From assembly GCA_028277685.1 (NCBI GenBank), contig JANQFT010000599.1, positions 1 to 45,271 on the forward strand: DNA of 45,271 nt, in the 5' to 3' direction. Of the stretch, positions 1-32,601 are shown in pieces; position 1 is the stretch's first letter, and each line of letters opens with the position of its first letter. This DNA comes from Phycisphaeraceae bacterium. Its GTDB lineage: Bacteria; Planctomycetota; Phycisphaerae; Phycisphaerales; Zrk34. The position numbers and the translations under genes were made by a program. The notes beneath the pieces were generated by a model. That model was not told where the DNA came from, did no database searches, and worked only from the letters and a program-made list of their open reading frames with translations.

Positions 1-3000
1 GCCAACGCGCTCGTGGTCAGCGGTACACGCAAACATCTTGATGCGATCGAATCGCTTGTCTATCGCCTGTCGTTCGGCGTAACCAGCGTGGAAGATGAGT
101 TCCGCCTGTTCAAAGTGGAACACGCCGACCCCGCCGCGATTGCATCCTTGCTGGAACAGCTATTCAACGGTCGTACCGCGGCGAAAGCGCAGCCGGAGCC
201 GGAATCGTCCGACCGCAAAGATCGTAACCGCAAGAAAGAAGAAACCGCGAAGAAGCAGCCGAAAACTTCAGCCAAACCGCAGGCCATCTCGGCGGTGCCC
301 GATGTGCGCACCCGCACCATTCTGGTTCGTGCCAAGCCGACTGATCTGGACATGATCGGCGAACTGATCACGCAGCTCGACACCGTGACCACCCTGGTCA
401 GTGAAGTGCGCGTGTTCCCGCTGCTGAACTCCGATGCGAAGGAAGTTGCCGACAACCTGCGCGAACTGTTCCAGCTTTCCACTGCCACCTCGACCAACGG
501 CAAGAAGACCAGCCGCGCCGCCAGGCAGCGGGTGGATACCATTCGCCAACTGGTGAAATTGCGCATCGCCGATGGGAAGACGCAAGTCGATACCAGCATG
601 ATGGTCAGCATCAGCCCCAATCCGCGCACCAACGCCATTGTCGTGGCCGCGCCGGCCGACGCCATGGGTGTCATCGAACGGCTCGTTCAGGAACTGGATC
701 AATCCGCCGCCGCTGCCAGTCAGCCCATCATTCGGATGTACCCCGTGGCGCACGGCGATGTGCCCGTCATGGTGAAAACACTGAATGATGTCGTGGCGAA
801 GAAAACGCCTGCCGGCAAGGCGACCAGCATTCGCATCACCGGTGACGAACCAGGCAAGGTGATTGTGGTGGCCGCACCATCCGATCAGCACCCACTACTC
901 GCGCAAGTCATTCGCGACCTGGACAGCGCACGTGCCAGCGAGGGAGCCACCGTCAAGGTGTACCCCATTCGTCATGGTGATGCGTGGAGTCTTGCCGCCG
1001 TGGTATCAGAAACGATCGCTGCCGACCAGAACGCGAAGAAGACCACCCAGCCCATGCGCATCAGCGCCGAGGCCGGCAGCAACACGCTGGTCATCAGTGC
1101 TTCGGCCGACGATCACGATCGCATCGCCGAACTGTTGGCGCAGTTGGATCAGATGACCCCCGCGCGCGGTGTGTCGCGCATCATCAGCCTGGAACACGCC
1201 GACCCGACAGAAGTGGATACGGCCATTCAGCGTCTGTTTAACCCCACGCAGCATGGACAACCCAAAGACAGCGGCAGCAAACACCCCGGCGCACGCCAGC
1301 GCGTGCAAACCAGTGTGCTTGCCCAGCAACGCGCCCTGTTGATCAATGCCAACGATGAAGACTTCGCCACCATCACCGAACTGGTGAAGCAGCTTGATGT
1401 TCGTGCCGGCGAAGCGAAGATGGAGATGCGCGTGTTCACCCTCAAGCACGCACCCAACCAGCGCGTGCAGCAGGCGTTGAATCATGCGTTCTGGGCTTCG
1501 GGACGGGGCAAGGGCCCGCAGGATCGTTTGTACGTGAGCCTCGTGCGCGACAGCGATGCCCTGGTGGTCATCGGCACCAAAACGAAGCTGGAGCAAGTGA
1601 CGCAATTGATCGCGCAGTTGGATACCCCGGAAGTAGCCGCCGGGCCTGAGTTCCGTGTTTATCCGTTGGAAAACGCCATTCCCACCAAGGTACGTCCGCT
1701 GCTTCAGCAGATGCTCAATCAACTGGCGCGGGCGAACAACGAGCGTATCAATGTGCAAGCGGATGATCGTACCCGCACGGTGATTGTCACGGCGCGCATG
1801 AAACTGTTCGATGAAATCGACAAGGTCGTGAAGACACTCGATCAGGCACCAGCCTATGCCGAGGCAGAAGTTCTGATCATCCCTTTGAAGCGCGCCGATG
1901 CCACCCGTTTGGCCGAGGTGCTCAATCAGATGATCACGAAGGAGCCTGACGCAAAACTCTCTCCGGAAGCGAAGGCCCTGCAGGAACAACTGCGTGTGCT
2001 CAAGGTGCGCAGCAGTGATGGCTCGATTGCCCCGCCGCTCGATCTGAACAAACCCGTGAAGATCATCGCTGACCCGATCAACACCGGGGCGCAGGGGTCG
2101 AACCAGTTGATCGTTTCCTCCACGCCGGACAACCTGAAAGCGGTGCAGGCAATGGTGGCGTTGCTTGATCGCGTGCCGCTCAGTGGTGAAGCGGTGTTGC
2201 GGATCATTCGTCTGGAACACGCCGATGCGGATTCGGTGGCTGAGATTCTTCGTGATGTGTTTTCACAGGGCCGCAAAGAACTGACCGGCGCACCAGGCTC
2301 CAGTGTTGCCGGTCGCGCTGAACCGGATAGCACGACGGGTCAGGCACTGGTGGGGCCGTTGAATGTTTCGTCAGATGTGCGTTCGAACCTGTTGGTGGTC
2401 AGTGGCAGCGATGAAGCGGTGGCACTTGCCGCGATTCTGGTGGCGGATCTGGACAGTTCCCCCGGCGCCCTGACCACCGATGTGCGCGTATTTCATTTGG
2501 AGCACGCCGATCCAGCCAAACTTGCTCCCGCGCTCGAAGCGGTGTTTGCCGAATCACAAACCACCCGCGCCGGGCAACGCGCCCAGGTGACGCGCTTACG
2601 CGTGAAGATCGGCAAGAAGAGCCAGGAATCGGAAAGGCCCCGCAGTCGTGAAGCACTGGTGATTCGCGCCGATGAAAGCACGCAATCGCTCATCGTGGCC
2701 GCCCACAGTGATGTGATGCCATTGATTGCCGATGTGATCAAAACCATGGATAGCCCCACCGCCAATCAACAGCAGGCGGTACGGGTGATTCCATTGGTGC
2801 AGGGCGATGCGGAGAAGGTCGCCGCCACGCTCGACAAGGTGTTCGCTGAGAAGCGCGCCGCCGAGATCGCCGCGGGCGGTACCGGCCGTTCGTTACCCAC
2901 CAACGTGAGCGCCGACACGCGCACCAATTCGCTGATCGTCGCCGGCACAGCCGATGGGTTTGACTTGGTCGAACAGATGGTGAAAGACCTCGATACCACC

Positions 3001-4770
3001 ACCACGCCCCGGGTGGTTGAACTCCGTGTGTTCAGTCTGACCAACGCCGACGCGGAAGAACTGGCCAAGATTCTGACCGATGTGCTGACCAAGACGCCCG
3101 CAGGCGGCCCGGAAATCAGTGCGGATCGTCACACCGTGATGCAGTTCATCACTGAGTCGGCAAACGGCAAGAAGCTGATGGCCAGCGGGACGCAACAGTC
3201 TTTGCTCATCACCGCCGATAAACGCAGCAACGCGCTCATCGTTAAGGCGCCCACCGATACCATGCCGCTGTTGAAAACGTTGATCGAGTCGATGGATTCC
3301 ACGAACCCACGTACCGCGCAGGTCCGTGTGTTCAATCTGGTGAACGCCGACGCACGACAGATGGCCGATGTGCTGACCGACCTGTTCCGGTTGAAGGGCG
3401 ACACCGGAACCGACCGCGCGGTGAAATACACCTTGATGACCCCCGATGCTTCGGCGGGTAGCGATGAGGGTGCCAGCGCCATCGTGGGTTCAGCCGAGCA
3501 GCATGCGCTTGCGGTCACCGTGGATGTACGCACCAACAGCCTCATTCTTGGCGGAACGACCAACTACGTGAAGTTGGCCAGTTCCATCATCGAACAACTC
3601 GACGCCAGCCCCGCGCAACAACGCACCACGCAGGTGTATCGCTTGCGCAATGCACAGGCGACAGATATTGAAGCGTCGTTACGCAAGTTCCTCGACCAGG
3701 AACGTGCACGTGTGGTGGAGGCTCTGGGTAGCGACAAACTTGGTGCGGCACAGCGTCTGCTTGAACGCGAAGTGGCCGTGGTGGCAGAAAGCACCACGAA
3801 TACGCTGCTGCTGAGCGCATCACCGCGGTACTTCGAAACGGTGAGCAAAATTGTCAAGGAATTGGATCAACCCCCGCCACAGGTACTCATTCAAGTGCTG
3901 TTGGCCGAAGTCCAGTTGGATGATGATACCGATCTTGGTTTTGAATGGACCCTCAACAAAAGTGTTGGTGGGTTGGGTAGTCTGAGCGTCGGCACCGACT
4001 TCGGCATTCAGGATGCATTTGATCGCTTTGGCGGTGGTGCGCTCTCGGTCACCGGTGGCGACCTTTCGTTCATGCTGCGTGCACTTCAGAGCAAAGGCAG
4101 GCTGGAGGTGCTGAGCCGTCCGCAGGTGATCGCGACTGACAACCAGGTGGCGAAAGTTAATGTGGGCCAGCGCGTGCCGTTCATCACCAACAGCCGCATC
4201 GATGAAGATGGTGATGTGGTGAACACCATCCAGTACCAGAACATCGGTGTTCTGCTTGATGTGACGCCGCGCATTAATGACGACGGCTTCGTGAAGATGG
4301 ATGTGCGGCCGGAGGTCAGCAGTGTGGCTGAAGGCGGCGTCGAGATTACCGAAGGGGTGAACGCGGCAATCTTCAACGAGCGATCAGCCGAAACCACGGT
4401 CAGTGTGCAGGATGGTCATACGATCATCATCGGCGGGCTGATCACATCCGACGACAACCTTCGCGAAAACAAAGTACCGTTGCTGGGCGACCTGCCGATC
4501 GTCGGTGCATTGTTCCGCAGCACGAGTGATTCCAAGCAACGCCGTGAGTTGCTGATCATTCTTACCCCGCATGTGATTCGTGGCGTGGAAGATGCGGACC
4601 GTATGACCAAGCTGGAATCTGATCATGCTCAGTTGCTGCGTGAGATGTCGCGCGATGCACTGAAGGATCGCGTCTTCGCTCCGCTGAATGGCGAGCAACC
4701 TGTGCGACAGAACCCGCCGCTGAAACCCACCGATGTACCCTTGCTGCCGGGCCAGGGGAAAGACAAGTGA
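1..4770 (+). CDS. Giant secretin with multiple N-domains (5' partial)
   Basis: The reading frame is open from base 1 with no credible start, so the gene begins before the window; 1589 residues are visible. Residues to about 1290 are roughly fourteen and a half tandem secretin N-domains. Each has a strand like RVFxLxHAD, a helix, and a later strand like RTNxLIV followed by a helix ending in LD. Residues from about 1290 to 1540 form the C-terminal secretin beta domain: VLIQVLLAEV, SRPQVIATDNQVAKVNVGQRVPF, DVTPRIND, DGHTIIIGGLI, and LPIVGALFRSTSDSKQRRELLIILTPHVI are seen in order. Secretins form the outer-membrane gate of type II secretion and type IV pilus systems, and ordinarily carry two to four N-domains. 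The extended array could span a deep periplasm, which is inference. The stop overlaps the next start by one base. Confidence 0.93.
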   Translation, partial: ANALVVSGTRKHLDAIESLVYRLSFGVTSVEDEFRLFKVEHADPAAIASLLEQLFNGRTAAKAQPEPESSDRKDRNRKKEETAKKQPKTSAKPQAISAVPDVRTRTILVRAKPTDLDMIGELITQLDTVTTLVSEVRVFPLLNSDAKEVADNLRELFQLSTATSTNGKKTSRAARQRVDTIRQLVKLRIADGKTQVDTSMMVSISPNPRTNAIVVAAPADAMGVIERLVQELDQSAAAASQPIIRMYPVAHGDVPVMVKTLNDVVAKKTPAGKATSIRITGDEPGKVIVVAAPSDQHPLLAQVIRDLDSARASEGATVKVYPIRHGDAWSLAAVVSETIAADQNAKKTTQPMRISAEAGSNTLVISASADDHDRIAELLAQLDQMTPARGVSRIISLEHADPTEVDTAIQRLFNPTQHGQPKDSGSKHPGARQRVQTSVLAQQRALLINANDEDFATITELVKQLDVRAGEAKMEMRVFTLKHAPNQRVQQALNHAFWASGRGKGPQDRLYVSLVRDSDALVVIGTKTKLEQVTQLIAQLDTPEVAAGPEFRVYPLENAIPTKVRPLLQQMLNQLARANNERINVQADDRTRTVIVTARMKLFDEIDKVVKTLDQAPAYAEAEVLIIPLKRADATRLAEVLNQMITKEPDAKLSPEAKALQEQLRVLKVRSSDGSIAPPLDLNKPVKIIADPINTGAQGSNQLIVSSTPDNLKAVQAMVALLDRVPLSGEAVLRIIRLEHADADSVAEILRDVFSQGRKELTGAPGSSVAGRAEPDSTTGQALVGPLNVSSDVRSNLLVVSGSDEAVALAAILVADLDSSPGALTTDVRVFHLEHADPAKLAPALEAVFAESQTTRAGQRAQVTRLRVKIGKKSQESERPRSREALVIRADESTQSLIVAAHSDVMPLIADVIKTMDSPTANQQQAVRVIPLVQGDAEKVAATLDKVFAEKRAAEIAAGGTGRSLPTNVSADTRTNSLIVAGTADGFDLVEQMVKDLDTTTTPRVVELRVFSLTNADAEELAKILTDVLTKTPAGGPEISADRHTVMQFITESANGKKLMASGTQQSLLITADKRSNALIVKAPTDTMPLLKTLIESMDSTNPRTAQVRVFNLVNADARQMADVLTDLFRLKGDTGTDRAVKYTLMTPDASAGSDEGASAIVGSAEQHALAVTVDVRTNSLILGGTTNYVKLASSIIEQLDASPAQQRTTQVYRLRNAQATDIEASLRKFLDQERARVVEALGSDKLGAAQRLLEREVAVVAESTTNTLLLSASPRYFETVSKIVKELDQPPPQVLIQVLLAEVQLDDDTDLGFEWTLNKSVGGLGSLSVGTDFGIQDAFDRFGGGALSVTGGDLSFMLRALQSKGRLEVLSRPQVIATDNQVAKVNVGQRVPFITNSRIDEDGDVVNTIQYQNIGVLLDVTPRINDDGFVKMDVRPEVSSVAEGGVEITEGVNAAIFNERSAETTVSVQDGHTIIIGGLITSDDNLRENKVPLLGDLPIVGALFRSTSDSKQRRELLIILTPHVIRGVEDADRMTKLESDHAQLLREMSRDALKDRVFAPLNGEQPVRQNPPLKPTDVPLLPGQGKDK
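97..3870 (+). repeat. Tandem array of about 14 secretin N-domain repeats
   Basis: These are protein-level repeats inside the giant secretin gene. Unit starts lie near 97, 400, 724, 949, 1168, 1423, 1651, 1864, 2191, 2482, 2779, 3019, 3316 and 3621, with the beta domain starting near 3871. Units are about 75 to 110 codons. The linkers between the two halves vary in length and are rich in charged residues, for example Lys-rich near 220-270. The repeats are strongly diverged in DNA, so the array is old rather than a recent slippage product. Confidence 0.85.
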
Positions 4771-5282
4771 TGCGGCGTGCTGGGATGATTGTGTTGGTTG
4801 CAGGTATGTGCTTTGTGCTTGGTGGTTGTGGTGCATCCACAAAGGCCAAGCCATCCACGGACATCACCGCCGGACCTGCACAACGCGTTGATGCGATTAA
4901 CATCATCGCGCCACCGACCGCGCTCGATGTGGATGGTAAAACCGGGGTGGATGGCGTGCCGGTGACCGTTTATCTGTTCCGCACGGATAAGTCACTACCG
5001 CTTACGTTACGCACCGGGGCACTATCGTTCGATCTGTACGGCGGTCGTCTGGCGGCGGGGCAATTGCACAACGCCAAGCCGCTGCGCACCTGGATGTTCA
5101 GCGCAACAGAACTGAAGCAAGGCAAAGACGAAACGATGATCGGTACGTGTTACAAGCTCATGCTGAGTTGGGGGACAGACATTCCCGCCACACCCACGAT
5201 TACCTTGGTGGCCCGCTATGTTCCCACGGCAGGCCGGCCGACGATGGCAACCCCGATTTCCCTGGCCACCCGGCCACGTTGA
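4770..5282 (+). CDS. Small predicted lipoprotein coupled to secretin
   Basis: The protein has 170 residues. The ATG at 4770 shares its A with the secretin stop TGA, which indicates translational coupling; a GTG one codon earlier is also possible. A short charged N-terminus, a hydrophobic stretch and a lipobox LGGC with Cys20 predict an outer-membrane or periplasmic lipoprotein. The mature part is mostly beta-strand in character, with no recognised domain. Secretins often need a lipoprotein pilotin for assembly, and this gene's position makes such a role plausible, but no pilotin family similarity is visible. It ends one base before the convergent acyltransferase stop. Confidence 0.8.
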   Translation: MRRAGMIVLVAGMCFVLGGCGASTKAKPSTDITAGPAQRVDAINIIAPPTALDVDGKTGVDGVPVTVYLFRTDKSLPLTLRTGALSFDLYGGRLAAGQLHNAKPLRTWMFSATELKQGKDETMIGTCYKLMLSWGTDIPATPTITLVARYVPTAGRPTMATPISLATRPR

Positions 5283-7194: not shown

Positions 7195-8664
7195 CTACTT
7201 GCCGTACCCAGCATTGCGATACGCCGCATCAGGGCTGTCGCCAAAGCCCAATTCGCTGCAGCGCTTGCGGAATGTCGCAATCGCGTTGGCGTACTTCGGC
7301 TCGTTGATCAGGTTGCGCCGTTCGTCCGGTTCGGCTGCCAGGTCGAACAGTACTTCGGGTTGATCGGTACAGTCCTCGCGGTCGTAGCGCTGGTACTTCA
7401 AATCGTCGCGCTTGATCATCAGGTTTGTCGCGCCGAATTGGCTGATTGATTCGTTGTGGTAGCGCGTGTGCCATTCGTCGGCCTGCCCCTGCATCAGCGG
7501 TAGCAGCGATCGGCTGTCCAGCCCGGCGCCGTTTACTGTTTTCTCGTCATCCGGCAGGGGTGTGTTGGTGATATCGCACAACGTGGCGAACAGGTCGCAC
7601 AGGTTGATGTTTTCGTTCACCACGCGGCCAGCGCGTCCATCCCACTCACTACCAGGTTGCACACCCCAGGCTTCACGAATGGCGCGAGGAGGACGAATGA
7701 TGAATGGAATACGTGCCGACGCTTCAAAGAACTTTTGTTTCTCCCAGATGCTGTGTTCACCCAACATCTCACCGTGATCGCTGGTGTAGATGATCCACCA
7801 GTCATCGGGATCTTGCCCGACGTGGTGCATATGGTCCATGACCTTGGCGTAATCGGTGTCGATTTCTTCGATCATGCCGTAGTAGGCGGCGGTGGCGCGG
7901 GTGATCTCGCGCGGGGTGACATCTTCATTCACTTTCACGCAACGCTGGGCCAGGAACGGATGGTCGAACAGTGGTTCGTTGTCGAAGATCGGCACGCGCG
8001 GCAGGTAGTAGGTGAACAGTTCTTCGGTGGTGAGATACGGATAATGCGGCCGATTGTAACTGAGCTTGAGCAATGTGGGCACGTTGGGAGAAACACGATC
8101 GTAGTATGGATCGGTATACCGCGCTTCGAGAAAACGAATGACGCCCAACGTGGAAAGCTCATCGGGTACCTGCGTGCCGGAGCCTCGTCCGACACCGGCG
8201 TTCTGGATTTCCCACACGTCTTTATCACGCAGTTTGTACGGCATGTGGCGCGTTGGATGATCCGGGGGAACGACTGCATCGGGATCGGGCGTGATCACGC
8301 GCGTGTTGCTGCCGATGCGCCGCTCCCAGCCCTGCATCTGGTCCGGTCCATCATGATGCAGCTTCCCGCAGCAAACGGTGCTGTAGCCATACTGCCCAAG
8401 TCGACGGGAGAAGGTCATGCTGAATGGCGGCAGGTCTTCGCCGTATCGTTGTGAGCCACATGTACGAGGCAGTTGCCCCGCAGCCATGCACTGCCGGGTG
8501 GGCATGCAGATGGGGCTGGCTGTGTACGCATTGCGGAACACAATGCCCTCGCGGGCAAGTTTATCCATCAGCGGTGTGCGCACGACCGGGTTACCTTCAT
8601 AGCCAGTCACATCGGGACGATGCTCATCCGACATCAGAAACAGAATATTGGGTTGATCTGTCAT
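7195..8664 (-). CDS. Cys-type S1 sulfatase without signal peptide
   Basis: The protein has 489 residues from ATG at 8664. The N-terminus PNILFLMSDEHRPD carries the metal-binding Asp13 of the alkaline-phosphatase superfamily. The sulfatase signature CMPTR starts at Cys53, the residue oxidised to formylglycine in active sulfatases. A second metal site is seen in TSDHGEMLGEHSIWEKQKFFEASARIPF. The C-terminal part, including DPEVLFDLAAEPDERRNL-like sequence, is typical of sulfatases. There is no signal peptide, unlike the divergent neighbour, so it probably acts on imported sulfated sugars in the cytoplasm. The substrate cannot be read from sequence. The 105-bp divergent gap to the next sulfatase is AT-rich and probably holds both promoters. 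Confidence 0.92.
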   Translation of the reverse strand: MTDQPNILFLMSDEHRPDVTGYEGNPVVRTPLMDKLAREGIVFRNAYTASPICMPTRQCMAAGQLPRTCGSQRYGEDLPPFSMTFSRRLGQYGYSTVCCGKLHHDGPDQMQGWERRIGSNTRVITPDPDAVVPPDHPTRHMPYKLRDKDVWEIQNAGVGRGSGTQVPDELSTLGVIRFLEARYTDPYYDRVSPNVPTLLKLSYNRPHYPYLTTEELFTYYLPRVPIFDNEPLFDHPFLAQRCVKVNEDVTPREITRATAAYYGMIEEIDTDYAKVMDHMHHVGQDPDDWWIIYTSDHGEMLGEHSIWEKQKFFEASARIPFIIRPPRAIREAWGVQPGSEWDGRAGRVVNENINLCDLFATLCDITNTPLPDDEKTVNGAGLDSRSLLPLMQGQADEWHTRYHNESISQFGATNLMIKRDDLKYQRYDREDCTDQPEVLFDLAAEPDERRNLINEPKYANAIATFRKRCSELGFGDSPDAAYRNAGYGK

Positions 8665-8769: not shown

Positions 8770-10389
8770 ATGATGCATCGACGCACTTTCCTGCGGACGC
8801 TTTCGGTTGGGGCGGCGGCCTGCGCGGTGGCGCCATTTGAGACATTGGCCAGGCAGGCTGAACCGCAAAGGCCCAATGTGCTGTTTATTCCGATTGATGA
8901 TCTGAAACCGCTACTTGGGTGTTACGGCGCGAAGCACATCCATAGCCCGAACATCGATCGTCTGGCCAAACGCGGTGTGATCTTCAACAACGCGCAGTGT
9001 CAGTTTCCAGTCAGTGTGCCGAGCCGCGTGAGCCTGCTGACCGGTATGTATCCTGATTCAACCGGCATACAGGATTTGCGCACGCAGATGCGCGATCGTC
9101 ACCCCGATGCACTCACGCTGCCCCAGCATTTTCGTAACCGAGGCTACGCTTCCTGCGGTGTGGGTAAAACTTTCGACAGCCGTGCCGTGGATAAAGGACA
9201 CGACACACCATCATGGTCGCACGGGTATGTGAGGCATCCGGTTGAACAGCTCAATCCCAATTACCCCAGACCTGTTGGCTATGGCTACCTGCATCCCGAA
9301 ACACGAAAGCGCACTGCGGAAGTAGAAGAACTGCGCCGTAACCATAAAGGTTCAGGTAAGGAAAAATGGAAGCTGTTTCAAAAAGTTCCGGGCAGCCGAC
9401 CGGCCTACGAATCGATGGATGTGCCGGATGATGCATACATCGATGGCGCGATTGCCAACCATGGCATGATGCAATTGGAGAATCTTACGAGCCAGGCGCA
9501 GCCGTTCTTTCTGTCGGTGGGTTTCTTCAAACCGCACCTGCCATTTGCGGCCCCGAAGAAGTATTGGGATTTATATGATCCGGAAGAGATCGATCTCGCG
9601 GCGTATCAGGAATTGCCGCGGGGCGGTGCGGAGATCGCCTATCAACCTGGTTGGGAATTGCGCCACGGCTACACTGGTGTTCCCAAAGGTGACCTGCCGG
9701 AAGACTATCAACGCAAACTGATTCACGGATACTACGCATGCATCAGCTACATCGATGCGCAAGTCGGTAAGCTGTTGGACAAACTGGATGAACTGAAGAT
9801 CGCGGACAACACCATCATCTGTCTGTGGGGTGACCATGGTTGGCACCTTGGCGATCACAACATGTGGTGCAAGCATTCGACATTCGAGCAGGCAATGCGT
9901 TCACCGTTGATCATTTGCGATCCGGTATCCTCACGTACTCCGCAGGCGTCGCGAGGCACGATTGCCGATGGACCGGTAGGTTTCGTGGATGTATTCCCCA
10001 CATTGTGCGCGTTGGCGGGGTTGCCGACGCCGGAGCATCTGCAAGGTGTTGATCTCTCGCCCATGTTGCGCGATACGAAGGTGCAGCTTAAGTCCATGCA
10101 ACTCAGTCAGTATCCGCGCAGTAAAGATGGGGTGAAGTATGTTGGTTACACGCTGCGCTCGGATCGACACCGCGCCACGTTCTGGCTGAAACGTGAGGAT
10201 GCGGCGCTACCTGATGCGGCGTCTCGCGCTGAATGGGTGGAGTTATATGATTACAAAACGGATCCGGAAGAACGGGTGAATGTTGCCGGTGATGCGTCGT
10301 ATGCTGCCGTTCTGCAGGTGTTCAGCAAAGCCTTGCCACAGCAAGTGGCCCATGGGCGATCGCATCCGCCACTGCCCAAGGTCAAGTGA
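8770..10389 (+). CDS. Ser-type, Tat-exported iduronate-2-sulfatase-like sulfatase
   Basis: The protein has 539 residues. GAAGGA stands about 12 bases before the first of two tandem ATGs. The N-terminus HRRTFLRTLSVG is a twin-arginine signal, followed by a hydrophobic Ala-rich stretch. Metal ligands Asp43-Asp44 are in LFIPIDDLK. The catalytic signature reads SVPSR (Ser82 to Arg86), so the formylglycine precursor is Ser rather than Cys. Ser-type sulfatases are known to be matured by the radical-SAM enzyme anSME; none is in this window. The later segment WGDHGWHLGDHNMWCKHSTFE is typical of the iduronate-2-sulfatase group. It ends exactly against the convergent beta-helix gene: the two stops form the palindrome TGATCA at 10387-10392. 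It probably desulfates algal or animal-type polysaccharide outside the cytoplasm. Confidence 0.93.
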   Translation: MMHRRTFLRTLSVGAAACAVAPFETLARQAEPQRPNVLFIPIDDLKPLLGCYGAKHIHSPNIDRLAKRGVIFNNAQCQFPVSVPSRVSLLTGMYPDSTGIQDLRTQMRDRHPDALTLPQHFRNRGYASCGVGKTFDSRAVDKGHDTPSWSHGYVRHPVEQLNPNYPRPVGYGYLHPETRKRTAEVEELRRNHKGSGKEKWKLFQKVPGSRPAYESMDVPDDAYIDGAIANHGMMQLENLTSQAQPFFLSVGFFKPHLPFAAPKKYWDLYDPEEIDLAAYQELPRGGAEIAYQPGWELRHGYTGVPKGDLPEDYQRKLIHGYYACISYIDAQVGKLLDKLDELKIADNTIICLWGDHGWHLGDHNMWCKHSTFEQAMRSPLIICDPVSSRTPQASRGTIADGPVGFVDVFPTLCALAGLPTPEHLQGVDLSPMLRDTKVQLKSMQLSQYPRSKDGVKYVGYTLRSDRHRATFWLKREDAALPDAASRAEWVELYDYKTDPEERVNVAGDASYAAVLQVFSKALPQQVAHGRSHPPLPKVK

Positions 10390-17848: not shown

Positions 17849-18073
17849 AAAGGGTTATGTCCTTGCCATCTCGGCCGAAGCAGGAAATGGGTTGTTGACG
17901 ATGTTGGGAAGTGCTGAGTCGTCGGCAGCGAACGAGGCGATCAGATTCAAATCGTTACTTGTCAATCGCTGTTTCGGCGTTCACCGCGCCATCTGGTTTT
18001 GCAGAGATCGACAGTTGCTCTACCGGGTTGTAGCCTGTGGTCCAATGCCGACGGATGTTCATTCGGTACCAGT

Positions 18074-19687
18074 ATGACCATGCAGACACAATCCGATGAT
18101 GTTTCTGTTTTTCCGGAACCTCGCGCGGTGGAACGTATCCAGGGGTATTGGCAGCCGAGCCAGAAATCTGAATCGGGTGAAGGCGCTCGCATCAATGTTC
18201 ATGCGGCAGGCTTACCTGATCAGATGTCTTTGCTGCGCGACTATCTTGAGTGTGAGCAGAGCCTGCTGGTCATGCAGATGAGTGATCAGGATGCGGATAT
18301 CGAACTGAGTCTGGATCTGCCTGAACGTCCACTGACTGATCATGCTACTGCTGCAGGGCTGTGCGATGAACAGTATCACCTGAACATCACCCCGCAGAAG
18401 ATTCACCTGCGCGCGACGACATCCAATGGCGTGGCCATGGGCATTCAGACGTTGCGTCAGTTGTTTCTCTCCTGTGAAGCATCATGCGAACTGCCATGCG
18501 TGGAGATCAAGGATGAGCCCGAGCTCGCCTGGCGTGGCTTGCACCTGGACGTCAGCCGACACTTCTTTGAGGTCGAACAGATCAAGCGCTTCATTGATCT
18601 TGCAGCACTGAACAAATTCAATCTGTTCCATTGGCATCTCACGGACGACCAGGGGTGGCGTTTGCCCATCGAAGGGTATCCCAGGTTGACCGAGGTGGCT
18701 GCCTGGCGAGCGCAGACGATGATCGGCCACGATCGTGAGCGTGAGACGAATCCGTACGATGGTGTTTGCCATGGCGGTTACTACACGCACGAACAGATTC
18801 GTGAGGTGGTTGGTTATGCGGCACAACGAGGCATTCATGTTCTACCGGAAGTGGATATTCCCGGTCATGTGCAGGCGCTGGTGACCGCCTATCCGGAGTT
18901 TGGTGTGCTGGGCACACCACCGGGCGTCCGCGAGTATTGGGGCATCAGCGAGCATGTGCTCAACCTCGAGCCTGTCACCATGCAGTTCATTGAAGCGTTG
19001 ATCGACACCCTCATCGATTTGTTTCCCTTCAGGTACGTGCACCTGGGAGGAGATGAAGCGTTACCGGGCCAGTGGGCGAATTCACCGCAAGTACAAAAAC
19101 GTATGAAGCAACTGGGTATTGCTGCGGTGGCAGATGTTCAGAACCACTTCACACAATCCGCGGCAGGCTATCTGGCCAAAGCCGGGCGATGTTTAATCGG
19201 ATGGGATGAAATTATTGAGCATGATTGTTGCACAGAAAATACCGCGGTGATGAACTGGCGTGCCGGTGGGCGGACCACGCGTCGTTACCATGCGGAGGCT
19301 GCCGCTGCAGGCTTGCCCGTTGTTCTTGCTCCGCAAACACACACCTACTTCGACATGCGCGAATCAGCGGATGACGATCGCGCGACTGAAGGGTGGAACG
19401 CGGATACGTGCTTACCGTTGCAGTGCGTCTACGACTGGCAGCCGCTTGTGCACATCCAGGATGAGCACCATGACTGTGTGCTGGGTGGACAGGCGCAGCT
19501 GTGGACGGAGTACATTCCAGACTTTGATCACCTGATGTATATGACCTATCCGCGAGCCTGTGCATTAGCCCAAGTGTTGTGGACAGGTCCATCCCGCGAA
19601 GACTGGCCGACGTTCTGTCGACGCTTACTCATGCAATTGTCGCGGCTCGACCGATTCAACGTTGACTATCGTCACTGTGTGTTGTGA
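18074..19687 (+). CDS. GH20 beta-N-acetylhexosaminidase
   Basis: The protein has 537 residues. The frame opens with TTG at 17999, but ATG at 18074 (or 18080) is preferred because it precedes the family N-terminal domain. Residues about 10 to 160 form the GH20b beta/alpha domain, with GVAMGIQTLRQLF. The GH20 barrel follows: WRGLHLDVSRHFF, FHWHLTDDQGWRLPI, EVDIPGH and YVHLGGDEA, with catalytic Asp327 and Glu328. It releases terminal GlcNAc or GalNAc from glycans by substrate-assisted catalysis. There is no signal peptide, so cytoplasmic action on imported oligosaccharides is likely. It is divergent from LacI regulator 1, and the shared region contains the putative operators. It ends 64 bp before the convergent purK stop. 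Confidence 0.93.
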   Translation: MTMQTQSDDVSVFPEPRAVERIQGYWQPSQKSESGEGARINVHAAGLPDQMSLLRDYLECEQSLLVMQMSDQDADIELSLDLPERPLTDHATAAGLCDEQYHLNITPQKIHLRATTSNGVAMGIQTLRQLFLSCEASCELPCVEIKDEPELAWRGLHLDVSRHFFEVEQIKRFIDLAALNKFNLFHWHLTDDQGWRLPIEGYPRLTEVAAWRAQTMIGHDRERETNPYDGVCHGGYYTHEQIREVVGYAAQRGIHVLPEVDIPGHVQALVTAYPEFGVLGTPPGVREYWGISEHVLNLEPVTMQFIEALIDTLIDLFPFRYVHLGGDEALPGQWANSPQVQKRMKQLGIAAVADVQNHFTQSAAGYLAKAGRCLIGWDEIIEHDCCTENTAVMNWRAGGRTTRRYHAEAAAAGLPVVLAPQTHTYFDMRESADDDRATEGWNADTCLPLQCVYDWQPLVHIQDEHHDCVLGGQAQLWTEYIPDFDHLMYMTYPRACALAQVLWTGPSREDWPTFCRRLLMQLSRLDRFNVDYRHCVL

Positions 19688-29355: not shown

Positions 29356-32300
29356 ATGTTGACGTCCCGCTTGTTCAATACCTGCATAACGACCTGTTCC
29401 GCCTTTCTACTGATAACCCAGACAGCGATTGCTCAGGTACCGCCGGCTAGCCGCCTGGCACGTTCATCAGATCTTCAACGCCAACTGATCGCACCTTGCG
29501 ATTCCTTTTTGGAAGTGCGTGGTGAGGGATGGCGAATGACGTCACTGCGGGCTGAACGTGATGAGTCTGTAAAAGCGAAGCTTCCACCAACCTGTCTAAG
29601 ACTGACTGGCCATGCACATGCCGCAGGCGCCAAGGCAGATTTTACATTCACTGTCGCGCCGCACGAAGCGTGGGAGCAAGTGGGCGTGTGGGTTCATCTT
29701 GAGGACGATGCAAACGTTGATCGTTTGGGTTTCCAGGTGAGTGACCATCATGGCGAAGCATTCATCTTCACCAAACCGGTTACATCAACAGGTTGGCAAT
29801 GGGTTGAGTTCGATCTGACCACTGCAACACTAAAACACGCTTATCCACAAACCAAAGGAAACCGAAAAATTGATGGCTCGATTAAACGTCTTTCGGTTGT
29901 ATGGTTTGCGAGGCAGGCTGGTAAAACATATCTGACCATCGATGCCGTTACCGGCGGCGTGCGTACGAAACAATCAACGAATCTTCTAGGCATGCAAGCC
30001 CTTGGCAATGATACACTGCCGCGTCACCACGGACTGCAAAAAAGCCTACTGTTGACCAATCGTTCTTCAAAGCCAATCACTGTTGATCTGAGCCATCATC
30101 TACAACGTGACTCGATCTACTACGATTACCCCGCGCCGCATGCTGTGCATGGTAGTGATCATGCATTGGATGGTATTTCACGGACGATCGCTTACGGTCA
30201 AGCAATCGCCCACGACACACTGACCGATGGCATTGGTTGGTCAAAGGCGGATGCGAATGCACGCAAGGAAGAACGGCTTGAAGTGACGCAACTTGTAGAA
30301 CTGTCCCGCGAGCGCAAGATCACACATCTTGCGTTTACGGGAGACGACGCGAATTGGACATGGAACTGTGAGATGACTTCCTCACGAGATGGGAAAACCT
30401 ATCGTCCGATCGAAGGGCTTGGCGCGATTGATCTGCATCGCAAATGGGGTCGTGTTGATGTCAACGTTCCTCAACCGTTTGTCGCACGGTACCTGAAACT
30501 GCGCTACTGGAAGGATGGCCAACCTGCGCCGCGCATGCGCATGCCTTCCGCGTTGTCGATTTACGATGGATTAGAAGATGAAACTTTTGAGCCACCTGCG
30601 CTCAGTCACACGATCACATCAGGCAGGCAGCAAGTACGTATTCCCGCGCGATCTTTTACTGTAGTTACTTTGAAAGACCAGCAACCTTTGGAAACAGGGC
30701 GCTATCTGCTAACGCTCATTGCAGAACAAAATGGTCGTAAGCAGATGATCTACGCTCCGGTCTATGTGCAACTGGCTGAGGTGGCACAGATTGATGCAAG
30801 TTCACGCTTTGGCATGAACACATCGAACATCAAGCTTGCCTCCATGATTCGCCAACTCGGCGTGGGTTGGGTGAGATTCGAGAATATGAAGTGGCCACAC
30901 TGCGCCCCTGAACCGGGCCGTTTTGCGTTTGACGGCAGTGTCTCGCCGTGGAACGTGCCGCATGACGAAATCTTTAAACGCTACCATGATCTGGGTATGA
31001 CAACGCTGCCATACTTGTATCAGGTTCCGGTGTTCGAAAGTACGCATCCGCCCAGCGCCAAACGTGGACGTCGACTCGTCTATCCGCCGAAAGACAACGC
31101 AAAATACGGTGAATTCACTTTCCAGGTGGCAGCGCGATATGGCTCAAAAAAGCATCCACCCAGCGTATTGCTGACTGATGACAAAGTCAGCGGACTTGGA
31201 TACATGAATACATTTGAGCTGTGGAACGAGGCGAACCTGAACAACCCCAAGTGGGGGCACTTTGTTGGAACGCTGGGTCAATACTTTGAAATGTACAAAG
31301 TGGGCGCACTCGGGGTTAAACGAGCTGACCCCACTGCCAGGGTAGCAAGTACGGGATGGGCGGGAATCAGCCTTGATTTCATCGATCGGATGCGCACCTA
31401 TCGGTACGCCGACGGCACCACGCCGCTGGATTACACCGATGTGCTGAGCGTTCACTATTACACCGGCCGATCGACCCCTGAACTGAACACGCTGAACACC
31501 AACATCGACAGGTCTGGCAAGAGTAAAGGCGGCAAGCCATTTGAAGACCAACTACAGCGTTTGGTTGATTGGCGTGATCAATATCGTCCCGGCATGCGCA
31601 TCTGGATGACTGAAACCGGCTACGACGCCAACGGCGGATGGGGCGTGGGCGAACGGCTGAAAGCCGCATGGGTGCCACGGGTGAGTATGGTCTGCCTGGC
31701 CGCAGGCATCGATAAGGTGATGCTGTTCCGTGAGCGAGGGTCGGGCAACACGCGCTTTGCCGCCAGTGGCGTTTTGCGAAACGACAACAGTCACGATCCG
31801 TCATGGTTCACATTCGGCACGATGCTGCGTCAACTGCGCGGCGTGGACGTACCTGCTGACCAATTTGATCTGGGCAACACCAATGTGCGTGTTTATGCAT
31901 GGCAAACGGATCAAGAAACGATCTTGACCGCATGGGCAGTCAAGGGAACTGATATGCTGAAACTGAAGCTGGGGCGATGCACGGTTACCGATGCCTTCGG
32001 CCACACGCGCACCATCAATGTGGATGGCAACCTGCCCCTCAGCGAGATGCCGTTGTACATTCGCAACATCCCAAATCAAAACGTCATTCACCCGCTGATC
32101 GACCAGGCACGCAAGCGAGAGAAGCAACGCGTCATCGATCGCGACCGACAGGCGAAGAAGCGTGTTGTTTTGTTCGATTTCGGATCGACCGAAGATGTGG
32201 GAGCAGTTCATGTGGGAACGCATCGCCCCGCCGTGGCTGTTACGAAGAACAACGTGTGGAGCACCAGCCTTGGGTATGGCTTCACGCCCGGTGTCGCTTT

Positions 32301-32601
32301 GCGCGATGAGAATGGCCGTTGGCAACGTGAACCACTTGAACAGGATACGACCCGCATCAATGCCGAGACCGCTTTCCAATTCACCCTGCCACCGGGCAAG
32401 TATCAATTGCAAATCAAGGCAGCGCTCACTTCAAATCAAGCAGCACTGCATGTCACCGGTATTCACAGTGAGACCTCGCTCAACGTGACGAAGGAAAAAC
32501 CTCTCGCAGAACTCATCATCACAACCACAGGCGGACCGATTCGCATCCAGCCGAATCGCCCAATCGGTTTACGATGGATTGCGGCGATAGAAAATGACTG
32601 A
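29356..32601 (+). CDS. Large secreted clan-A-like glycoside hydrolase
   Basis: The protein has 1081 residues. A signal peptide ends near TAIAQ; an AGGA site precedes the ATG. Residues about 30 to 200 resemble a beta-sandwich carbohydrate-binding domain, and about 280 to 400 a discoidin-like domain. The catalytic TIM barrel runs from about 490 to 840. Two glutamates occupy typical acid/base and nucleophile positions: FELWNEANL with Glu625, and IWMTETGYD with Glu753. This pattern fits clan GH-A (for example GH39- or GH5-like enzymes), but I do not recognise an exact family. A C-terminal beta-rich domain follows. It is encoded after pseudopilin 2 in the LacI-2 module. A role in degrading an extracellular polysaccharide is inferred. 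Confidence 0.82.
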   Translation: MLTSRLFNTCITTCSAFLLITQTAIAQVPPASRLARSSDLQRQLIAPCDSFLEVRGEGWRMTSLRAERDESVKAKLPPTCLRLTGHAHAAGAKADFTFTVAPHEAWEQVGVWVHLEDDANVDRLGFQVSDHHGEAFIFTKPVTSTGWQWVEFDLTTATLKHAYPQTKGNRKIDGSIKRLSVVWFARQAGKTYLTIDAVTGGVRTKQSTNLLGMQALGNDTLPRHHGLQKSLLLTNRSSKPITVDLSHHLQRDSIYYDYPAPHAVHGSDHALDGISRTIAYGQAIAHDTLTDGIGWSKADANARKEERLEVTQLVELSRERKITHLAFTGDDANWTWNCEMTSSRDGKTYRPIEGLGAIDLHRKWGRVDVNVPQPFVARYLKLRYWKDGQPAPRMRMPSALSIYDGLEDETFEPPALSHTITSGRQQVRIPARSFTVVTLKDQQPLETGRYLLTLIAEQNGRKQMIYAPVYVQLAEVAQIDASSRFGMNTSNIKLASMIRQLGVGWVRFENMKWPHCAPEPGRFAFDGSVSPWNVPHDEIFKRYHDLGMTTLPYLYQVPVFESTHPPSAKRGRRLVYPPKDNAKYGEFTFQVAARYGSKKHPPSVLLTDDKVSGLGYMNTFELWNEANLNNPKWGHFVGTLGQYFEMYKVGALGVKRADPTARVASTGWAGISLDFIDRMRTYRYADGTTPLDYTDVLSVHYYTGRSTPELNTLNTNIDRSGKSKGGKPFEDQLQRLVDWRDQYRPGMRIWMTETGYDANGGWGVGERLKAAWVPRVSMVCLAAGIDKVMLFRERGSGNTRFAASGVLRNDNSHDPSWFTFGTMLRQLRGVDVPADQFDLGNTNVRVYAWQTDQETILTAWAVKGTDMLKLKLGRCTVTDAFGHTRTINVDGNLPLSEMPLYIRNIPNQNVIHPLIDQARKREKQRVIDRDRQAKKRVVLFDFGSTEDVGAVHVGTHRPAVAVTKNNVWSTSLGYGFTPGVALRDENGRWQREPLEQDTTRINAETAFQFTLPPGKYQLQIKAALTSNQAALHVTGIHSETSLNVTKEKPLAELIITTTGGPIRIQPNRPIGLRWIAAIEND

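Follow-up and report, generated by a model that had tools for sequence, protein, structure and literature searches.

The window, by which we mean the whole stretch of 45,271 nucleotides analysed here, is an entire contig (C404) of an assembly in 651 contigs. Its first frame (1-4770, + strand) is open from base 1, ends with a stop at 4768-4770 and comprises 1589 codons; it is the 3' portion of a giant secretin gene, gspD, that is open at the contig edge. Pfam recognised 14 Secretin_N stretches in the product (whole-protein E 3.3e-157) and a single Secretin gate, PF00263, at residues 1361-1527 (4081-4581, +; E 1.6e-51, 174.7 bits against a cut-off of 27.5). With a repeat model built from the domains of the window and refined by iteration on relatives, 14 complete N-domains are delimited across residues 34-1291, preceded at residues 1-23 by the last 23 residues of a fifteenth that is cut by the contig edge (1-69, +; model positions 51-72, E 0.0055). 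Numbered back from the gate, the complete domains lie on the + strand at 100-387 (-14; residues 34-129), 406-705 (-13; 136-235), 730-930 (-12; 244-310), 952-1155 (-11; 318-385), 1174-1404 (-10; 392-468, the first domain of the array whose structure was predicted), 1426-1629 (-9; 476-543), 1651-1848 (-8; 551-616), 1870-2175 (-7; 624-725), 2197-2460 (-6; 733-820), 2482-2757 (-5; 828-919), 2779-3000 (-4; 927-1000), 3022-3303 (-3; 1008-1101), 3322-3609 (-2; 1108-1203) and 3628-3873 (-1, adjoining the gate; 1210-1291). The initial annotation had reported about fourteen N-domains and more than 1290 residues of repeats ahead of the gate. Both figures are exact for the window, where the domains end at residue 1291 and the gate begins at 1361. 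As the window is the whole of C404, the gene lacks its 5' end here, and fourteen is a minimum, not the total.

The front of the gene probably lies on a second contig of the same genome, C280 (6187 bases). There, a 701-aa frame that runs off the contig end begins with a signal-peptide-like stretch, followed by an N0-like domain (type_II_gspD_N0, E 2.1e-5, 24.7 bits, just below the cut-off of 27) and seven Secretin_N domains. Upstream of it are encoded GspK (T2SSK) and a PilM/GspL-like protein, as well as a protein of 361 aa that occupies the GspM position. In the best alignments on the 4213-aa protein of the relative G013, the C280 frame falls on residues 137-763 (37% identity) and the window protein on residues 2610-4155 (34%). 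Judged by this content, the two contigs are probably parts of one gene. The full-gene recovery that the initial annotation proposed went only part of the way: no overlap between C280 and C404 was found, so that joining by overlap failed, and a search of the genome for a missing middle piece gave Secretin_N matches only on C404, C280, C6 and C553. The gap between the two contigs may span anything from part of one domain up to about eleven domains.

Several lines of sequence evidence identify the system. The window protein scores 654 bits against TIGR02517 (type_II_gspD; cut-off 351), a score raised by repeated matches over seven stretches, whereas the PilQ and SctC models remain below their cut-offs (258 bits against 284, and 231 against 238, respectively). 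Its best PDB sequence matches are solved GspDs, with 5wq7 matched over residues 1171-1534 (E 2.7e-53). Type II secretion genes adjoin the secretin on C280, as described above, and in the relative G040, where GspE, F, G, J and K and a weak PilM/GspL match lie next to the giant gene; no GspC was recognised in the G040 operon scanned, and neither GspC nor GspM was recognised by profile in the neighbouring type II genes. The N0-like N-terminal region aligns in all 13 giants, mostly below the cut-off of the Pfam N0 model: six of ten relatives match type_II_gspD_N0 at E 0.0027 or better, one of them above the cut-off. By these sequence measures, the protein encoded by the window, probably together with C280, is the GspD of a type II secretion system. 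It resembles E. coli and Vibrio GspD, Klebsiella PulD and Pseudomonas XcpQ in its gate, N-domain fold, N0-like start and gspK/gspL-type neighbours. It differs in the length of its array. Solved GspDs have N0 and three N-domains, against at least 21 complete N-domains over the two contigs here (14 + 7, a number that would rise if a middle piece were missing).

Directly behind gspD, and overlapping its stop by four bases, is a gene for a 171-aa lipoprotein (4767-5282, +) with the lipobox LGGC; lipobox and overlap were both judged by inspection. Nothing in Pfam, NCBIfam or the PDB matched it. Identity with a known pilotin of the GspS/AspS type was considered and rejected, since no homology to known pilotins was found, and the product is therefore not assigned to a known pilotin family. 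Like a pilotin, it is a small lipoprotein encoded with a secretin, with a putative outer-membrane location. Elsewhere in the window, two sulfatases and a GH20 glycosidase are encoded near the secretin gene (7195-8664, 8770-10389 and 17999-19687), possibly for polysaccharide use, and a 1081-aa frame at 29356-32601 has no Pfam match.

Giant secretins in the Phycisphaerales

Relatives from the same order in which the gene is uncut on one contig encode frames of 3100-5073 aa with 30-52 N-domains, and these very long frames end in the gate. Comparison of N-domain numbers among other planctomycetes, which the initial annotation had suggested, bears out its picture of an exceptional array and shows it to be understated. 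With the iterated repeat model (domain E 0.5) we count 30 domains in G023, 37 in G028, 43 in G013, 45-46 in G055 and G002, and 49-52 in G010, G014, G018, G019, G035, G040 and G043; a stricter count with the seed model (E < 1e-3) gives 24-42 in the dissected giants. Two of these genomes, G018 and G035, are single contigs with the giant frames (4623-4848 aa) inside them.

Among the matches listed from a search of 270 Phycisphaerales genomes, at least 119 rows have a gate frame of at least 2000 aa, 77 of these frames reaching 4000 aa or more; the median length is 4382 aa. In a sample of 294 genomes drawn from across the phylum, no frame outside the order was longer than 2331 aa. The named carriers are metagenome-assembled genomes such as Phycisphaeraceae IP29b_bin.9 and Phycisphaerales bin220 (CP070772.1). 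Among the matches listed, no giant frame came from Phycisphaera mikurensis, Mucisphaera calidilacus or Poriferisphaera corsica, and the P. mikurensis gate protein that was examined has six N-domains. Giant gspD genes also occur in bins labelled Verrucomicrobia (Loclat_bin-20771, L071) and Cyanobacteria (CYA N2, L122), which may reflect mis-binning, mislabelling or transfer, and G002 seems to hold two giant-type gspD genes (L045 and L046). Our search of the literature for giant secretins or planctomycete Secretin_N arrays found nothing relevant.

The arrays are regular in their spacing. Linkers between domains have a median length of 7 aa (n=591), with 88% falling between 5 and 9 aa; those of canonical short homologues, which have three or four N-domains, are mostly 6 aa. 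Many N-domains of the giants carry long inserted loops. Single N-domains were compared between proteins, and the reciprocal best pairs were tested for colinearity against shuffles, in which the longest colinear run was 16. Between G018 and G043, 48 of 50 domains are reciprocal best matches and all are colinear, and G035 and G019 share 50 reciprocal best pairs. The same holds between families, with 39/39 reciprocal pairs colinear for f2 and f3 and 36/36 for f5 and f3. Domains at the same position in different proteins are 47% identical, compared with 27% for off-position domains and a mean of 27% among the domains of one protein. We interpret this position-by-position conservation between families to indicate that the array is old and under selection. 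With every position kept, the array is not a tandem repeat that arose recently or is drifting. The group to which the window belongs (with G013, G002 and L064-L066) shows less colinearity with the other giants: in the one pair compared, only 11 of 15 pairs were colinear (shuffle maximum 9), which suggests that the two sets diverged early or expanded partly independently.

In one genus (G031, G056 and G174) and also in L076, which is distantly related, two adjacent genes encode the giant GspD, with the break inside one N-domain (L057:2661-15053 in G031, L168:771-12610 in G056, L169:2327-15008 in G174 and L076:2-7250). The first gene closes with the first half of this N-domain (up to about model position 30); the second opens with a signal-peptide-like stretch of its own, after which come the second half-domain (from about position 30-38), the remaining array and the gate. 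The first gene likewise has a signal-peptide-like start, except in L076, where that start was not seen. All signal peptides were identified by eye. That one N-domain is common to two exported chains suggests that its halves meet again in an ordered assembly. L054, a relative in which the gene is not split, carries a hydrophobic stretch that resembles a signal peptide in the same loop (protein residues 2092-2227), a hint of a past fusion or a coming fission. Two further candidates for split genes were rejected as apparent frameshifts: the pieces of G024 overlap out of frame, and the second piece of L071 has no signal peptide.

A homologue profile finds the family of the downstream lipoprotein directly behind nearly every expanded secretin for which there is downstream sequence, with one clear exception (G002 C34). 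It is present behind all four expanded secretins from Planctomycetia (L105, L107, L134 and L142) and in none of the 15 canonical gspD loci. Its members share a motif like DxDGNGxPDxxxVxxYLF ... PLxxWxF ... GPxY. Position, lipobox and co-occurrence together make the product of 4767-5282 a candidate pilotin or anchor, and it represents an undescribed lipoprotein family.

A proposed stacked conduit and its rivals

Secretins have been viewed as short devices fitted to a periplasm 20-35 nm wide, a picture from which a conserved GspD bearing tens of N-domains departs by nearly an order of magnitude. Given that solved gates have up to about six rings, arrays of about 25 to 52 ring domains, as found in dozens of related planctomycetes, imply either a tube of more than 100 nm or a new use of N-domains.

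Structure prediction supports a secretin N-domain fold for the repeats. AlphaFold2 models of the last five N-domains with the gate (pLDDT 72, pTM 0.41) and of six inner N-domains (pLDDT 69, pTM 0.45) show each repeat as a KH-like beta-alpha-beta-beta-alpha unit. The best fold matches of the repeats are GspD, ExeD and XcpQ: in Foldseek searches, domains plus gate best matched GspD (E 6.9e-28), and the array without the gate best matched ExeD/GspD (E 4.9e-9). The orientations of the domains within the monomer models do not match stacked GspD, with TM of about 0.1-0.3 (TMq 0.11-0.27) and rmsd above 25 A in the top full-length matches. The check by structure prediction proposed in the initial annotation supports the domain fold of the repeats, but the chains as modelled singly do not show the arrangement of a ring stack.

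What the sequences themselves offer is an N0-like start, a run of N-domains with linkers some 7 residues long between them, a normal gate and a translationally coupled lipoprotein gene, with gspK, gspL/pilM and a gspM-like gene upstream. With somewhat more confidence than doubt, we read these features as a ring-stacked periplasmic conduit of the type II secretion system, built from tens of N-domains and roughly 100-200 nm long, for which the lipoprotein serves as pilotin or anchor. The periplasmic N-domain array of a GspD would have grown to tens of copies. Oligomerisation of the subunits would take place through the gate, with N-domains from adjacent subunits forming stacked rings as in GspD and PilQ. 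The conduit would then run from the inner-membrane platform to the outer-membrane gate through 43-52 rings at 3-4 nm each, with the lipoprotein acting as pilotin or outer-membrane anchor, and its length would suit a system that bridges an enlarged or invaginated periplasm.

The nearest precedent is Thermus thermophilus PilQ, whose six rings were called unusual and whose length of 350 A is the longest in the literature that we found (PMC5745081). Scaled from six PilQ rings plus gate at that length, 43-52 rings correspond to about 100-200 nm. PilQ likewise has a longer-than-usual array, explained there by the wide Thermus periplasm, most of which its rings span (PMC5745081). It differs in being the secretin of a type IV pilus and DNA uptake system, and in having six rings instead of tens.

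Uniform linkers, domain-by-domain conservation and the secretin fold make a channel several times longer than in GspD or PilQ, as the initial annotation had proposed, the most natural inference. That proposal gains from N-domain numbers far beyond any solved secretin and is weakened by monomer models that lack stacked geometry. The split genes are also most easily explained if the two halves of the broken domain rejoin in one ordered stack. Counted against a tube are the low pTM, the non-stacked orientations, the lack of a recognised GspC in the G040 operon and the long inserted loops. A more specific picture is possible, but we hold it more tentatively: some 40-50 stacked rings, 100-200 nm long and several MDa in mass, with a new pilotin of their own and, in some lineages, two proteins joined by a split ring domain, would form the longest known periplasmic secretion conduit.

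The chief rival to a stacked tube is a flexible tether. Here only the gate-proximal rings of GspD would stack, and the other domains would form a beads-on-a-string arm by which N0 reaches the inner-membrane platform even as the depth of the periplasm varies. Monomer models without a fixed inter-domain orientation agree with such an arm, as do the great length that a straight tube would have and the variation in domain number from about 24 to 52 between lineages. It would also fit that, between groups A and B, the domains that still pair are the last two. However, a tether would not need to retain the identity and order of each of about 50 domains across families, and if a gene were split inside one domain, retention of both halves would not be expected. 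We consider the tether unlikely. Less probable still is that the N-domains hold substrate or bind the wall, and were selected for surface area and not for reach. The N-domains of canonical type II systems contact substrate and partners, and domains as diverse as those within one giant could bind different cargo, but an axial structure is favoured by the uniform linkers and by the order from N0 to gate. An artefact of mis-assembled repeats, chimeric frames or gene decay can practically be set aside: the window gene is broken over two contigs and some relatives (G024, L071) have frameshift-like breaks, but uncut frames of 4600-4850 aa occur in single-contig genomes and across many independent assemblies, and the domains are colinear between families and too diverged for an assembler to collapse or duplicate.

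At 100-200 nm, a straight tube would be several times as long as a normal periplasm is wide. In planctomycetes the periplasm can be very large and invaginated (PMC5394234), and it is plausible that the array is an adaptation to a wide periplasm; for the species that bear giants, we found no measurement of periplasm width in the literature. The initial annotation had also connected the array with the craters and fibres of planctomycetes, and neither connection is supported; both were rejected for this clade. Described Phycisphaeraceae are without crateriform structures (PMC8882080), and in Planctopirus craters occur at places where the inner membrane lies close to the wall, with none at invaginations (PMC5394234). 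For fibres there is no evidence, the operon being that of a type II secretion system. Taken as a conduit, the giant GspDs make it possible to test how secretion machines adapt to an enlarged planctomycete periplasm, over what distance pseudopili are able to push and which factors set the number of rings. Position-specific conservation indicates that domain number and order matter, and the linked lipoprotein family and natural split genes are direct handles for experiments.

Origin of the expanded array

In a tree of gate domains, the giants and the Planctomycetia proteins with 7-12 N-domains fall together on one side of a well-supported branch (99/93), and this expanded side adjoins a clade of canonical short GspDs; two seemingly short rows within it are cut by contig ends. 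Among short gates, those closest to the gate of the window (43-47% identity) belong to canonical GspDs of 720-940 aa from other Phycisphaerae and PVC bacteria (for example, G003, G005 and G054), which differ from the giants in their few N-domains and in the absence of the downstream lipoprotein family. The four Planctomycetia secretins (from Gemmataceae, Thermoguttaceae and others; 1250-2320 aa) share both the gate-tree clade and the lipoprotein family with the giants. They differ in having only 7-12 N-domains, with long spacers of 100-300 aa between some of them. Three further proteins (L177, L178 and L179) were considered as intermediates and rejected, as their frames of 1500-1600 aa have a gate with no N-domain array detected before it. 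They represent a separate secretin class of this size that is common in planctomycetes.
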